Below are positions 2,007-8,557 of a stretch of 64,000 bases of DNA, in pieces. The notes under the pieces were generated by a model. That model made no database searches and was not told the DNA's origin. It saw only the letters and a list, made by a program, of their open reading frames with translations. This stretch comes from an uncultured Treponema sp. (lineage in GTDB: Bacteria; Spirochaetota; Spirochaetia; Treponematales; Treponemataceae): the NCBI RefSeq assembly GCF_946187725.1, contig NZ_CAMHSK010000001.1:1-64000 (forward strand), read 5' to 3'. Made by a program: the position numbers and the translations under genes. The first letter of the stretch is position 1, and each line of letters opens with the position of its first letter.

Positions 2007-2822
2007 TTAGAATTTTACTGGATAAACAACATTATCTTCAGCTGTAGTATCGCCACCAAGAATTTTCTGACAAAGTACATTGTCTTTTACAATAAGAGCA
2101 AAATCATTGTCATTAGCAACACAGAATGTGTCTTTGTCCAAAAGCCAGATACTTTCAAGTTTTTCGTGTTTGTAAGCTCTGTCTTTTACCAAATCTGTAA
2201 GCACTTCTTTTTTGACAAATACGATTCCAGCGTTAATCAATTCTTCCTGAGTTGGGTACTTGCTGTCGCGCTCGATTACGAGGAACTCATCATTTGAAAG
2301 AGCCTCGATTCCACAGCAAGAATCTGTTTCATCAGGAGTTTTTGTAAGACCTTCCATACCTCTGTTTGCACGACGTTTGGCATAAACGGCAGGGATTTTT
2401 CTACCCTTTGTTGTCATTTCATAAGGACTGATTCTCTCAAGCTCTACACCGTCTTTTGAATAATGAGCGATATGAGGACCATATTCATCTGAAACCCAGA
2501 AAGTTCCGTCGCTCATTGCGACAAGACCTTCAATATCAATACCGTATTCGTCAGTACCAAGAATGTTATTTTCAAGGTCGTAGCCAAGCTCGCCTGTTGC
2601 ACCCAGTCCTTTTGAATTTGGAAGGCCTGTAAGTTTTTTGCCTTCTGGATTTTTGAGGCTGATTCGGATTTCAACACCATCCTTTGTTTTTCCAAGAACC
2701 TTGTACGGAACTTTTGCTCCTTTTTCGTTGACCTTAAACTTTTTAGAAGATTCTGCAAAAACTGCTACAGAACAAATCGAAGCAAGTCCAAGAAGAATAC
2801 CAATTTTTTTGAATTTCTTCAT
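2007..2822 (-). CDS. exported phytase-like esterase family protein
   Basis: The product has a signal peptide (MKKFKKIGILLGLASICSV) and is predicted to act outside the inner membrane. Segments such as IEGLVAMSDGTFWVSDEYGP, NRGMEGL, GIEALSNDEFLVIERD and FCVANDNDF are typical of the 'esterase-like activity of phytase' family, a beta-propeller-like group whose substrate is seldom proven. The 271-residue product is short for that family: the stretch usually found between the GMEGL and IEALS blocks is nearly absent. ATG 2822 follows a clear AGGAGG. The gene starts 65 bases after the phosphate transporter-regulator gene on the same strand with no terminator between, so a phosphate-scavenging role is a reasonable inference. 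Confidence 0.7.
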   Translation of the reverse strand: MKKFKKIGILLGLASICSVAVFAESSKKFKVNEKGAKVPYKVLGKTKDGVEIRISLKNPEGKKLTGLPNSKGLGATGELGYDLENNILGTDEYGIDIEGLVAMSDGTFWVSDEYGPHIAHYSKDGVELERISPYEMTTKGRKIPAVYAKRRANRGMEGLTKTPDETDSCCGIEALSNDEFLVIERDSKYPTQEELINAGIVFVKKEVLTDLVKDRAYKHEKLESIWLLDKDTFCVANDNDFALIVKDNVLCQKILGGDTTAEDNVVYPVKF

Positions 2823-2887: not shown

Positions 2888-4867
2888 TTAGTTTATCTTA
2901 TAGCCAATCCCACGTACAGTTTCGATTATTTTCTGGTTATTCAGTTTTTGCCGCAAAAGTCTGATGTGCACATCAAGCGTCCTGCTTTCGATTTCTTTGT
3001 CATAATTCCAGACCGCTTCACGAATCTGATCTCTTGTGACAATCTCGCCTTTGTTTTCCATAAGAAGGGCAAGCAACTCGTATTCTTTTACGGCAAGCTG
3101 GATTTCACTGCCGGAAACAAACACTTTCCGGCTTTTTGTATTGATGATTATATTCTGCGCGCTTATCAGATTTTTTTCTGTACCGTCGGCTAAAATCGAA
3201 TCGTTTAAGTTCGGCTGTATTGCCTGAATCACACCGAAAACGCAATCTCCGGCTTTTTCAATCTTGCGGACAATATCCATGTAATTAAGCTCGGCTTTTA
3301 CATTGCTTCCATTTTCGATTCGTCTGCGGCTTGCTTTTTTAAGTTCCCGCTTTGACTTATCAATCTGGTCTTCAACTTCGGACAACAGAACCTTATCAAT
3401 TTCTGAAAGTCCCAGCGCGATGTAAGTGCAGGCCTGCTCATAAAAGACATGAACCGTGTCAAAATATGAAATCAATTCCGTTTTCTGATTTTCGAATGCG
3501 AGATTATCCGCCTCTTTCTTGAACTTACAGACTGTATGCATCATCGAACAGCACTCATCACTTAAATCTTCAAGATTCTGAACAATTGAAATCATGCGGG
3601 CAAAATTGTTTCGGTCATTGTGATTGGCTGTGGGAAGGCGGGAACATTTCTGAAGGAAATAAGTGATTTCGTGGTTCATCTCATCCACATATTCTTCTTT
3701 TGCATTGACCTCTTCGCTCAAAGCTTCAAGTCTGTCTGATTTCCGGCTCAGGCTTTCCCCCAGGCAGTCCATCATCTCCATTACACGGGCGGACATCTTG
3801 GTGACTTCTTTTTGAATCTGGAAACTGTACAAATCGGCGCTGATATGGTTTGAAGGAAGAATGACAGGCATCTTGTAGTGGGCGTCTTTTTCTTTCTGGC
3901 TTTCCGGGATAAATTTTTCGGCAAGGAAAGAAATCTGCTTTACGAAAGGAAGGAACAAAAGTGTCGCAGAGATATTGAAAACCGTATGCAGCATGGCTAT
4001 GTGGGTCGTTATGTTCTGTGACGGGCTTCCTGGAACGATAATATCAATCAGCTTAAGGAAAGGATGAAGGAAAATCAGCGCCAGGAGAGTTCCCGTGACA
4101 TTGAATCCGACATGAACCGCCGCCGTCCTTTTTGCGTTCACGCTTGCCCCAAAAGATGACATTACGGCATCAACCGTGGAGCCGATGTTGCTTCCAAGAA
4201 CCATGGCCGCCCCCAAATTCCAGGAAAGGGAGCCGTTGGCAGACATGGTAAGGACAATGGCTGTGGTGGCAGACGAAGAATGAATCAGTGCGGTAAAGAA
4301 AACTCCTATCAGAACTCCGAGCAAAAGCCCTGCCCAGCCAAGCTTGTTAAAATCCTGCAGAAAAGCGACTGACTCAGGCTTTAAGTTCATCGAAGCTTTT
4401 AAAAGCCCCAGTGCCATAAAAAGAAGGGCGAAGCCCATGAAACAGTCGGCGAAGTTGTGAATCTTGAGCTTCTTGAAATATTTGAGGATAAAGCCGAAGC
4501 CGAACAAAGGAATCGCCGCCGCCTCTATGCTGAAAGAAAAGCCAAAAAAAGCTACAATCCATGCCGTGACAGTCGTTCCGATATTCGCACCGAAAATTAT
4601 TCCTATCGCCTGCACAAGATTTATTATTTCCGCATTTACAAAACTCACGACCATTACCGTGGTCGCACCCGAGGACTGAATGATTGCGGTAACGGCCATA
4701 CCTGTCAGCACCGCCGTGAACCTGTTCCCGGAGATTTTTCCCAGCAAAGAGTGCAGGCTGTTTCCGGCTCCCTTCTGAATACCGTTGGAAAGCATCTCCA
4801 TACCAAAAAGAAGAAGGCAGAGAGAGCCGACAAATCCTGAAATTTGACTGATTACAGTTATCATCAT
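2888..4867 (-). CDS. Na+/phosphate cotransporter - PhoU - OmpR/PhoB-type DNA-binding fusion
   Basis: This is one 659-residue frame with three parts. Residues 1-315 are an NptA/PNaS-type Na/Pi cotransporter with two inverted halves marked QSSGATT (64-70) and HSSSATT (196-202). Residues 345-555 are a PhoU-like helical region. Residues 565-659 are a complete OmpR/PhoB C-terminal winged helix, including VKEYELLALLMENKG, TLDVHIRLLRQKL and TVRGIGYKI. Transporter-PhoU proteins are well known; the added DNA-binding domain is not something I know for this family. The protein should be a membrane-anchored phosphate sensor that can bind DNA. A TATAGT box lies 7 bases before the second ATG (4864), so the message may be leaderless from there. 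PhoP/PhoB-like repeats lie upstream. Confidence 0.85.
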   Translation of the reverse strand: MMITVISQISGFVGSLCLLLFGMEMLSNGIQKGAGNSLHSLLGKISGNRFTAVLTGMAVTAIIQSSGATTVMVVSFVNAEIINLVQAIGIIFGANIGTTVTAWIVAFFGFSFSIEAAAIPLFGFGFILKYFKKLKIHNFADCFMGFALLFMALGLLKASMNLKPESVAFLQDFNKLGWAGLLLGVLIGVFFTALIHSSSATTAIVLTMSANGSLSWNLGAAMVLGSNIGSTVDAVMSSFGASVNAKRTAAVHVGFNVTGTLLALIFLHPFLKLIDIIVPGSPSQNITTHIAMLHTVFNISATLLFLPFVKQISFLAEKFIPESQKEKDAHYKMPVILPSNHISADLYSFQIQKEVTKMSARVMEMMDCLGESLSRKSDRLEALSEEVNAKEEYVDEMNHEITYFLQKCSRLPTANHNDRNNFARMISIVQNLEDLSDECCSMMHTVCKFKKEADNLAFENQKTELISYFDTVHVFYEQACTYIALGLSEIDKVLLSEVEDQIDKSKRELKKASRRRIENGSNVKAELNYMDIVRKIEKAGDCVFGVIQAIQPNLNDSILADGTEKNLISAQNIIINTKSRKVFVSGSEIQLAVKEYELLALLMENKGEIVTRDQIREAVWNYDKEIESRTLDVHIRLLRQKLNNQKIIETVRGIGYKIN

Positions 4868-4871
4868 TTAT

Positions 4872-4877
4872 ACTATA
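4872..4877 (-). promoter_or_regulatory. -10 box of the phosphate transporter-regulator gene
   Basis: TATAGT on the minus strand ends 7 bases before the second ATG (4864) and 4 bases before the first. No Shine-Dalgarno sequence is present. An alternative -10 (TATCAT, 4895-4900) lies 9 bases downstream of the direct repeats. Confidence 0.45.
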
Positions 4878-4909: not shown

Positions 4910-4938
4910 TGTTAATTGTATGTAAATTTTGAGGTTAA
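4910..4938 (-). promoter_or_regulatory. PHO-box-like direct repeats
   Basis: On the minus strand TTAACC, TTTACA and TTAACA follow each other with 12- and 11-base spacing. The last two fit the Bacillus PhoP consensus TT(A/T/C)ACA with one helical turn between units. They lie directly upstream of the gene whose product carries a PhoB-type DNA-binding domain, so autoregulation is plausible. The region is AT-rich, so chance cannot be excluded. Confidence 0.45.
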
Positions 4939-4962: not shown

Positions 4963-5421
4963 TCAACTAGCATCTTGAATGATTTCACCGGCTTTCCAAC
5001 ACTCGTAAATATATTGGCGTGACTGATAGAAAAAATCTGTGTTGTAATTTGAAATCGCCTTGCTTATCCATGAATTGTAAACCTTGCAAAGCGTTTCTGC
5101 GATAAAATCAATGCTTTCATTTTCGCCGCAAATATCTTCTATCAATCGCTCATAAACTTCACCTATTGTCCAGTAATCTGGAACCTCGTAGCGACAAGAA
5201 ACGACATTATCAAAAACTCCGTTCGCTAGAGATTTCATTTCAATGACTTCATCCGCTATTTTTTCAATTGGCTCACAATGCAGGACATCAGCATCTTTGT
5301 AAATCCGAGTGACAAAATTTTTCCCTAGCAAAGTCACAACAACTGAACGCTCTTGTTTGAGTTTTCTTCCAATATATTCAATCAAACTGCATGTGTAAAA
5401 AAGTGAATTGTTATTTTTCAT
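4963..5421 (-). CDS. unknown protein paired with a DUF3990 ADP-ribosyltransferase-like gene
   Basis: A 152-residue soluble protein. The N-terminal half (SLFYTCSLIEYIGRKLK, RIYKDADVLHCEPIEKIADE) resembles small proteins I recall beside DUF3990 genes in gut bacteria. The second half has a WTIGEVYERLIEDIC helix and an aromatic C-terminus. I use ATG 5421 (MKNNNSLF); the frame reaches back to 5433. The start overlaps the end of the DUF3990 gene by 11 bases, so the two are translationally coupled. A neutralising or accessory partner role is inference only. Confidence 0.65.
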   Translation of the reverse strand: MKNNNSLFYTCSLIEYIGRKLKQERSVVVTLLGKNFVTRIYKDADVLHCEPIEKIADEVIEMKSLANGVFDNVVSCRYEVPDYWTIGEVYERLIEDICGENESIDFIAETLCKVYNSWISKAISNYNTDFFYQSRQYIYECWKAGEIIQDAS

Positions 5422-5887
5422 CGTAGACCTCATCAGCCGTTTTGAAGGAAAGAGTTTCCAATGCTCGTGCGGTATGAAAACTTATCTGGTGTGTTGGCTT
5501 TTTGAATCGTGCGAGTTCCCAAAATGCAGAGCGAGAAATCTTTCCGTCTACAAAATTCTGAATGTAATTGAAAATCGTATCATTTGCCTTCGGACCTTCT
5601 ACAATATCAAAATCATGCGACTTACCGCTTCGACAAGCAACAATAAAATCAAGCCATTCTTCTGTCATTTCTGGAAAAGAAAGAATCTTTAAATTCGGAT
5701 TCGGCATATAAGTATATTCATTCATAATACCCTTTTCGTTGAAACGAATTGCCCATCTTTTGGCCTGCTCCATAAGAAGCGTACAATAAAATCCAAAATA
5801 AAAATCCTTGTTGTATCGTGTTATTCGAATTTCTGGAGACCTAACGATTTCTTTGCTTCCATGATAGAGAATTTTTGATTCTGCCAT
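5411..5887 (-). CDS. DUF3990 family protein, ADP-ribosyltransferase-like
   Basis: A 158-residue protein that opens ILYHGSKEIVRSPEI and continues FYFGFYCTLLMEQAKRWA, the hallmark blocks of DUF3990, which is thought to have an ADP-ribosyltransferase-type fold. The H-G-S and the G-F-Y-C-T strand correspond to NAD-binding positions in related transferases. It has no signal peptide. A TATAAT box ends 6 bases before the ATG and there is no Shine-Dalgarno sequence. The overlap with the downstream partner gene suggests a two-gene module, possibly toxin-antitoxin or phage defence. Its target is unknown. Confidence 0.7.
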   Translation of the reverse strand: MAESKILYHGSKEIVRSPEIRITRYNKDFYFGFYCTLLMEQAKRWAIRFNEKGIMNEYTYMPNPNLKILSFPEMTEEWLDFIVACRSGKSHDFDIVEGPKANDTIFNYIQNFVDGKISRSAFWELARFKKPTHQISFHTARALETLSFKTADEVYDEK

Positions 5888-5893
5888 GAAATA

Positions 5894-5899
5894 ATTATA
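5894..5899 (-). promoter_or_regulatory. -10 box of the DUF3990 gene (leaderless layout)
   Basis: A perfect TATAAT on the minus strand is followed by exactly 6 bases and then ATG 5887. Transcription would begin at or next to the start codon. Confidence 0.6.
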
Positions 5900-5907
5900 G
5901 TGTATTT

Positions 5908-6153
5908 TTAGTGAAATAGCGAATGGAATTTATACTGGCAGGATATGCACTGCAAGGGAAGTCCACATTTTAGTAAAATACTTCCTGCCACAGTTATGCC
6001 AATAGAAGGTCTTTTAAAAGTTCTTTCCATTACATCAAGAACATTATAATAACTCATTTTACCATTCAATAATCCTATAAATTTTGATTGTTCTGGATTA
6101 CCGAGAAAATCATTAGCTGTAAGCCCATTCAAATCTATTCGTGAAAAATCCAT
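5908..6153 (-). CDS. small protein of unknown function
   Basis: An 81-residue frame with a good GGAGG site 7 bases before ATG 6153, just upstream of the DUF3990 pair on the same strand. The first 45 residues (MDFSRIDLNGLTANDFLG, then KFIGLLNGKMSYYNVLDVMER) look like a normal protein. The Cys-rich end CISCQYKFHSLFH may be read-through after a frameshift. I recognise no family. Confidence 0.5.
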   Translation of the reverse strand: MDFSRIDLNGLTANDFLGNPEQSKFIGLLNGKMSYYNVLDVMERTFKRPSIGITVAGSILLKCGLPLQCISCQYKFHSLFH

Positions 6154-7162: not shown

Positions 7163-8557
7163 ATGACCACATCCCCAATCCTTGAGAAAGCAGAGCGAAT
7201 CCGTGATGTTATTCGCTACATTAAGCGATTTAAAAACGCGGCGGTTGTCATTCATATTGACGATGAAATCATTGACTCTCCGCTGTTCGTTAGTCATATC
7301 CGTGACATTGCTTTGATTCATCAGGCAGGTCTTCGTGTGATTATCGTGCCTGGTGCCAGAAAAAAGATTGATGCAGTGCTTACTCAGAATCATATTTCCT
7401 GGACTTATCAGAATGGCTGTCGTATAACACCTGGCGAAGCAATTCCTTTAATCCGTAATGCAGCTTTTGAAGTCGCGAACGGTGTTATGACGAGTCTTGC
7501 GGGTGAAAATCTTACGGCTGTTATTGGAAACTGGGTTCGTGCACGCGGAAAAGGTGTTCTTTCTGGTGTTGATTTTGGAACTGCTGGTGAAATCGATAAG
7601 CTTGATGACAGTACAATCAACACGATTCTGGACAGTGGCTTTATTCCGATTTTCCCCTGCATCGGCTGGAGTTTGAACGGAAAGCCTTACAACATTTCTT
7701 CGGCACAACTTGCTTCTCAGATTGCGACTCATTTAAAGGCTGACAAGCTTTTCTTTCTGTTGCCAGATGCCGAACTTTCACAGAAATATTTTGAGATTCC
7801 AAAAGAGCAGGGGCTTTCTCCAGAAGGTTGTATTCCTGCGATGAATCTCGAAGAACTTGATGAATTCTTGAAGATTAATGAGTGCGGTGAATCTGTTCAT
7901 GACGATGAGAAAAATCTTCTGTCTGATAAAATCCTTTCCTTACTGAATCTTGCAAAAAAGGCTGTAAAATCAGGGGTTACGCGTGTTCATATTCTGAATG
8001 GTTCTCTTGAAGGTTCTTTGCCTTGTGAGATTTTCAGTGATTTGGGTTCTGGAACCATGATTTATGCTTCTAATTACGGCAAATTCCGTGCTATGAGGCG
8101 TGAAGATATTTCTGCGGTTCTTTCACTCATACGCCCCTTCGTTAACCGGGAGATTTTGCTTCCTCGTTCGGAACAGCAGATGGAAGCAGAATATAATGAT
8201 TTCATTGTGTATGAGCTTGACGGTGCGATTCGTGCTTGTGCGGCTCTTCACATTTATGACCGCTCGCAGGCGGAAATTGCGGCTGTCGCAGTTGATGAAA
8301 ATTGCAGTCACATTGGAATCGGGCCTAAAATGATGGAATATCTTGTCGAAAAGGCCAAAATGGTTTCAATTGAAAGCGTTTTCATTCTTACGACGCAGAC
8401 GGCTGATTGGTTCGAAAAGCAGGGTTTTGTTCCTGATGATATTTCGTCATTGCCGCAAAAACGGCGTGAAACATGGAATCCAAATCGTGGTTCAAAACTA
8501 TTCAGACTGAAGCTTAACAGTTCTGGAAATCAGTCTTTGAAACCACATCATTTTTAG
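7163..8557 (+). CDS. argA: amino-acid N-acetyltransferase (N-acetylglutamate synthase)
   Basis: This enzyme transfers acetyl from acetyl-CoA to glutamate, the first step of arginine biosynthesis. Residues 1-300 form an amino-acid-kinase-like domain that opens with a FKNAAVVIHIDDEI strand, with IVPGARKKIDAVL near residue 65. Residues 310-450 are a GNAT acetyltransferase domain (AEIAAVAVDENCSHIGIGPK is the acetyl-CoA loop). The 464-residue length and two-domain order fit classical ArgA, not ArgB. The kinase-like domain normally binds arginine for feedback control. The start has no ribosome-binding site but a TACAAT box 6 bases ahead. Confidence 0.93.
   Translation: MTTSPILEKAERIRDVIRYIKRFKNAAVVIHIDDEIIDSPLFVSHIRDIALIHQAGLRVIIVPGARKKIDAVLTQNHISWTYQNGCRITPGEAIPLIRNAAFEVANGVMTSLAGENLTAVIGNWVRARGKGVLSGVDFGTAGEIDKLDDSTINTILDSGFIPIFPCIGWSLNGKPYNISSAQLASQIATHLKADKLFFLLPDAELSQKYFEIPKEQGLSPEGCIPAMNLEELDEFLKINECGESVHDDEKNLLSDKILSLLNLAKKAVKSGVTRVHILNGSLEGSLPCEIFSDLGSGTMIYASNYGKFRAMRREDISAVLSLIRPFVNREILLPRSEQQMEAEYNDFIVYELDGAIRACAALHIYDRSQAEIAAVAVDENCSHIGIGPKMMEYLVEKAKMVSIESVFILTTQTADWFEKQGFVPDDISSLPQKRRETWNPNRGSKLFRLKLNSSGNQSLKPHHF

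Follow-up and report, generated by a model that had tools for sequence, protein, structure and literature searches.

Within a 64,000-nucleotide window of an uncultured Treponema genome (the window being the whole stretch of DNA that was analysed), we identified one gene that encodes a sodium-phosphate (Na/Pi) carrier, a PhoU-like region and an OmpR/PhoB-type winged-helix domain. We assign a probability of about 0.62 to the reading that its product is a sodium-phosphate importer that also acts as a membrane-tethered, one-component transcription factor of the PhoB type, with its own promoter as the main target.

The way in which bacteria use transporters and PhoU to sense phosphate has long resisted explanation, because the signal, PhoU, the kinase and the regulator are separate entities that are hard to dissect. 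In the fused protein, the kinase and receiver have apparently been removed and PhoU is joined directly to a DNA-binding domain. If the proposed reading is correct, the coupling of transport state to PhoU output could be tested with one purified protein and one promoter, and the system would be accessible in a cultured organism (T. ruminis RU1, JC4 or C6A8). To our knowledge, no transporter that is itself a transcription factor has yet been described; this protein would be the first. It would also represent a clear case of a multi-gene two-component locus condensed to a one-component system, found here in a set of Treponema bacteria from gut and rumen.

Architecture of the fused gene

The features discussed in the text are listed below, with positions in the window and the evidence for each.

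2888–4867 (stop codon included), minus strand: fused gene for a 659-residue protein, Na/Pi carrier – PhoU – OmpR/PhoB winged helix (reading frame, Pfam, orthologs)
3863–4867, minus strand: SLC34/NptA-type Na/Pi carrier, residues 1–335, with QSSG...HSSS repeats (Pfam, TIGR00704, SLC34A2 match)
3218–3841, minus strand: PhoU-like helical region, residues 343–550 (Pfam, structure model)
3158–3217, minus strand: linker, residues 551–570, poorly conserved and of low model confidence (pLDDT, dN/dS)
2891–3157, minus strand: OmpR/PhoB-type winged helix, residues 571–659 (Pfam, fold match, grouping with PhoB proteins)
2945–2986, minus strand: recognition helix, residues 628–641, inside the signature ESRTLDVHIRLLRQKL (alignment, model, codon analysis)
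4910–4926, minus strand: Pho-box-type operator with the sequence TTTACATACAATTAACA, lying 59 nt upstream of the ATG (conserved in 17 of 17 fused orthologs)
4872–4877, minus strand: -10 element TATAGT, 32 nt after the operator and shortly before the ATG (spacing shared by all 13 fused promoters compared in detail)
2007–2822, minus strand: phytase-like gene (PF13449), downstream of the fusion (Pfam)

A sequence-only reading of this DNA had described an uninterrupted 659-codon frame at 2888–4867 without giving its strand. The analysis confirmed this frame and placed it on the minus strand; the plus strand of the same interval contains 15 stops. The three parts said to share this polypeptide, including a complete PhoB-type DNA-binding domain, were all recovered above curated Pfam cut-offs: Na_Pi_cotrans (PF02690, E 4.1e-52, in two stretches), PhoU (PF01895, E 2.2e-7), PhoU_div/DUF47 (PF01865, E 2e-6) and Trans_reg_C (PF00486, E 1.2e-25, residues 586–657; 89.8 bits against a cut-off of 26.2).

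The carrier part also matches the NCBIfam family TIGR00704 (262 bits, cut-off 210). Its QSSGATT and HSSSA motifs are invariant or nearly so, and it is related to a protein of solved structure, SLC34A2 (sequence match E 2.5e-13). The carrier part is a predicted sodium-phosphate importer.

For the C-terminal tail, the top regulator family in NCBIfam by score is PhoB, the match covering the DNA-binding half only. Modelled alone (pLDDT 77), the winged-helix domain fits the DNA-binding domains of ArlR, YycF and PhoB in structure comparison, and it superposes on PhoB bound to Pho-box DNA (1gxp) with a TM score of 0.82 at 1.5 Å. The full-length model (pLDDT 75, pTM 0.46) has pLDDT values below 50 at residues 553–589 and is too weak to fix the position of the winged helix relative to PhoU. 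Pfam and the model agree on a polytopic carrier as the membrane part and a winged helix at the C-terminus. Pfam detects no receiver domain in the fused protein, PhoU and the linker being what comes ahead of the winged helix, and gives no HisKA or HATPase match.

The phytase-like gene downstream of the fusion is a possible co-regulated neighbour; apart from this genome, L047 alone has it next to the fusion. Compared with the 426-residue homolog in L047, the phytase-like protein lacks some 65, 47 and 40 residues in three separate in-frame blocks, which may reflect real deletions or the assembly. Upstream of the fusion lies a cassette of small genes (4963–6153, minus strand), one of which encodes a DUF3990 protein (5411–5887) and is set between unassigned partner genes. 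Two plus-strand genes, one resembling N-acetyl-glutamyl-phosphate reductase and containing semialdehyde dehydrogenase domains (Pfam; 905–1849) and one resembling N-acetylglutamate synthase/kinase by eye (7163–8557), suggest that arginine synthesis genes flank the fusion region on both sides.

Distribution and origin of the fusion

Among a 196-genome sample of the genus, 17 other genomes match the fused protein through residue 658/659 without a stop. These matches comprise 14 full-length proteins at 79–94% identity, one divergent full-length protein at 63% and two that are partial at contig edges. A further divergent full-length fusion (L046) has 67% identity. The fusion is present in the cultured strains T. 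ruminis RU1 (closed genome), JC4 and C6A8 and, among 393 genomes spread over the phylum, is confined to the genus Treponema. With the same junction in at least 17 genomes, and no stop between PhoU and the winged helix in any of them, an assembly chimera or a missed stop can be ruled out.

Codon analysis yielded the same median dN/dS, 0.053, for the winged helix and for the transporter. Constraint is strongest in the recognition helix (0.030) and weakest in the linker (0.215). The winged helix is thus under strong purifying selection. Its recognition helix, described as normal from the sequence of this one gene, is conserved across relatives, and a general loss of recognition residues did not occur.

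In a tree of residues 1–550, all fused proteins fall in one supported clade (100/98). This clade also includes two unfused members, L049 (placed inside it, 99/83) and L084. Most simply, the history of the fusion would be one gain followed by one or two losses. The apparent losses of the winged helix in L049 and L084 suggest that a genome with a separate PhoB can do without the domain. One further copy (G014; L138, 1078–2199) has an intact box and carrier N-terminus but ends early, at 374 residues; its genome also encodes an unfused nptA and both members of a phoB-phoR pair in complete form.

Unfused homologs are about 550 residues long, have 57–68% identity to the fused protein and commonly adjoin genes for a 223-residue OmpR-type regulator and a 445-residue histidine kinase. 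The best family for the regulator is PhoB, and the best families for the kinase are PnpS and PhoR, all with scores below cut-off. One such locus (L129) has pstSCAB, phoU and an alkaline-phosphatase-like gene near the regulator, kinase and transporter.

The fused winged helices cluster with the PhoB-like regulators of the genus, apart from the four other OmpR-type regulators of this genome, which were the only outgroups in the winged-helix tree. The fused winged helices and the PhoB-like regulators share the signature ESRTxDVHIRxLRxKL. With this grouping, an origin from an unrelated regulator is not favoured. The winged helix likely descends from the PhoB of an ancestral phoB-phoR-nptA locus; this origin is likely rather than proven because the nearest outside sequence, S. 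aureus ArlR (46–47% identity), is almost as similar to the winged helix as the PhoB proteins of the genus are.

A conserved operator and its candidate reader

A direct repeat, TTWACM-N5-TTWACA, lies upstream of all 17 fused genes with a readable flank, compared with 0.017 occurrences expected from first-order Markov shuffles. Chance occurrence in AT-rich DNA is thereby ruled out. The surrounding DNA and the upstream genes vary between many fused orthologs, yet the box is kept. Thirteen fused promoters were compared in detail, and in each of them exactly 32 nt separate the repeat from a TATAGT-like -10 element. The operator stops about 9 nt short of a poor -35 hexamer, outside the core promoter.

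A Pho box consists of two 11-nt direct repeat units (PMC4415409), and the repeat ahead of the fused genes fits that definition as a sequence pattern. Most phoB genes and most unfused nptA genes of the genus likewise have the repeat, at about -60. Further boxes were found near pst genes, upstream of pstS in L130 and L134 and between pstS and pstC in L129 and L134. The -10 element (4872–4877) ends a few nucleotides before the ATG (4865–4867), as it does in other Pho-box promoters of the genus, which suggests that these promoters produce leaderless or nearly leaderless messages. In most of them the gap between the -10 element and the ATG ranges from a few to about a dozen nucleotides.

In one subclade (L037, L038, L039, L040, L041, L076 and L017) the recognition helix has Gly in place of Arg (HIG for HIR). 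The second half-site is TTTACA in all seven HIG proteins with readable promoters and TTAACA in nine of ten HIR proteins, the exception (L045) being close kin of the HIG group. This pattern amounts to a single evolutionary event and is only suggestive of protein-operator co-evolution.

Neither a search for exact boxes in four fused-only genomes nor a search for box plus -10 element in eight revealed a recognisable second shared site, and neither produced an excess over a reversed-pattern control. The lack of a second shared site in these genomes points to self-control as the core function of the fused protein. A larger regulon with degenerate boxes may exist, since the searches covered exact-type boxes.

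Several observations bear on which protein reads the box. Where the gene is unfused, 23 of 26 genomes that encode a PhoB ortholog have the box, against 0 of 10 that lack the ortholog (Fisher p 1e-6). Corrected for kinship, this association comprises three independent contrasts, of which two agree, one is a tie and none opposes. The fused genes retain the box even in genomes without PhoB, PhoR, Pst or Pit. Because the box is kept in fused genomes that have no PhoB and is absent from unfused genes in genomes that have none, the tethered winged helix is the simplest and best candidate reader in PhoB-less fused genomes.

The genus sample contains 20 fused genomes, namely 18 from the ortholog search (this genome included), G066 and G131. 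A PhoB ortholog is absent from 16 of the 20 and PstB from 17. No PitA-type carrier was found among the 19 fused genomes tested; a PhoR-like kinase is intact in four of these 19 and a fragment in one more. The proposal, made from the sequence alone, that the fusion replaces the PhoR/PhoB/PstSCAB-PhoU chain is consistent with these counts, but only in part: four fused genomes keep PhoB, and the whole sample of 196 genomes has a PhoB ortholog in just 36 and PstB in 37. Absence of PhoB and Pst is the usual state of the genus (about 80%) and is not specific to fused genomes. Nor is the fusion the sole importer, because a second NptA-PhoU carrier, about 40% identical and without a winged helix, is encoded in this genome and in most of the fused genomes listed. 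The second copy in this genome has no box.

The case for a regulatory role itself has become considerably stronger than the sequence-only reading had made it. Two things that had not entered that reading argue strongly for it: a conserved Pho-box-type operator at the promoter of the fused gene itself, and the phoB-phoR-nptA loci in which relatives encode the parts separately.

Proposed mechanism and comparison with known systems

In S. aureus NptA, the PhoU domain represses PhoR when phosphate is plentiful (PMC13170248). Without its receiver, PhoB binds DNA constitutively through its DNA-binding domain (PMC4415409). A receiver-less version could work for that reason, and a kinase-free switch made by joining PhoU to the DNA-binding domain is conceivable on the same grounds.

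We propose that the winged helix is on the cytoplasmic side of the membrane, where it would bind its own operator. During phosphate inflow, the PhoU domain would hold the tethered winged helix inactive. Falling inflow would free or pair the winged helix, leading to operator binding and activation of the fused gene. Import would then rise until PhoU turned activation off again. Carrier, flux sensor and regulator would form a closed loop in a single chain, operating without a kinase, a receiver domain or a phosphorelay. We lean towards the fuller account in which the carrier is a DNA-binding activator of its own gene, uniting import, flux sensing and control in one protein with a one-gene core regulon, and in which it arose from a phoB-phoR-nptA locus by capture of the PhoB DNA-binding domain and loss of the phosphorelay.

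Activation at low phosphate is probably the direction of control. The same tethered winged helix on the same operator could instead repress its own gene at plentiful phosphate and so limit importer number, and negative feedback of this kind is equally compatible with membrane-tethered self-control and a single conserved site. We regard such autorepression as unlikely, though credible. The operator is outside the core promoter, ahead of the poor -35 hexamer and at a distance of 32 nt from the -10 element. It is placed as in the promoters of phoB and of unfused nptA, which are normally activated by phosphorylated regulators of the PhoB type. Activation is favoured over repression because of this position and shared placement.

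Regulated proteolysis at the flexible linker could release the winged helix as a soluble regulator. Residues 551–570 are the least conserved of the protein and are modelled at low confidence, but unlinking the domain would also lose the PhoU input, and we consider this route improbable. A soluble form made by separate translation from an internal start is unlikely, as no conserved Met occurs between residues 531 and 602.

It is quite improbable that the winged helix has ceased to bind DNA and gives the transporter a tail for protein contacts or allostery, with another OmpR-type regulator reading the box. This genome does encode four other such regulators, and one subclade of fusions has the Arg-to-Gly change in the recognition helix. 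However, the recognition helix is the very part under the strongest constraint (dN/dS 0.030), the recognition helices of the other regulators differ from it (e.g. EENSVDVYVRHLR), and the closest of these regulators, on contig 3, is paired with its own kinase. Regulators similar to the four are also present in unfused genomes, and genomes that lack PhoB have no box before their unfused genes, so such regulators seem not to maintain it.

The box could also be left over from former control by PhoB, with the fusion in another role, but this is very improbable indeed. Unfused nptA genes have the box as well, so it is no exclusive mark of the fusion; against this reading, it is intact with exact spacing across the divergent fused lineage and is missing from unfused genes in PhoB-less genomes.

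The preferred reading, a self-regulating importer, has partial counterparts among known systems. We found no account in the open-access literature of a solute carrier, PhoU and a DNA-binding output in one chain, in line with the earlier remark that no described example was known. In its accessible part, a survey of NptA proteins names only NptA with PhoU, NptA without PhoU and the Vibrio type (PMC13170248). The parts are all known, and their combination in one chain appears to be new.

S. aureus NptA belongs to the same carrier family and has the same carrier-PhoU order, and its PhoU domain modulates phosphate-responsive gene control through PhoPR (PMC13170248). It has no DNA-binding domain, its regulator being a separate two-component system, whereas the fused protein carries its own winged helix. 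PhoB and PhoP have a winged helix of the same family, and the Pho box is a direct repeat of the kind that lies ahead of the fused genes; the fused protein differs from them in having no receiver domain or phosphorylation site and in being tethered to a transporter.

Transmembrane transcription regulators of the CadC/ToxR type have a DNA-binding domain that acts from the membrane, as we propose for the fused protein. They typically have their winged helix at the N-terminus, together with a single transmembrane helix and a periplasmic sensor (PMC10269533), whereas the fused protein has a polytopic transporter and a C-terminal winged helix. The transceptor CbrA (SLC5-STAC-histidine kinase; PMC13022988) likewise combines a transporter and a signalling output in one polypeptide. 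The output of CbrA is a histidine kinase that acts on a separate regulator, whereas that of the fused protein would be the DNA-binding domain itself.
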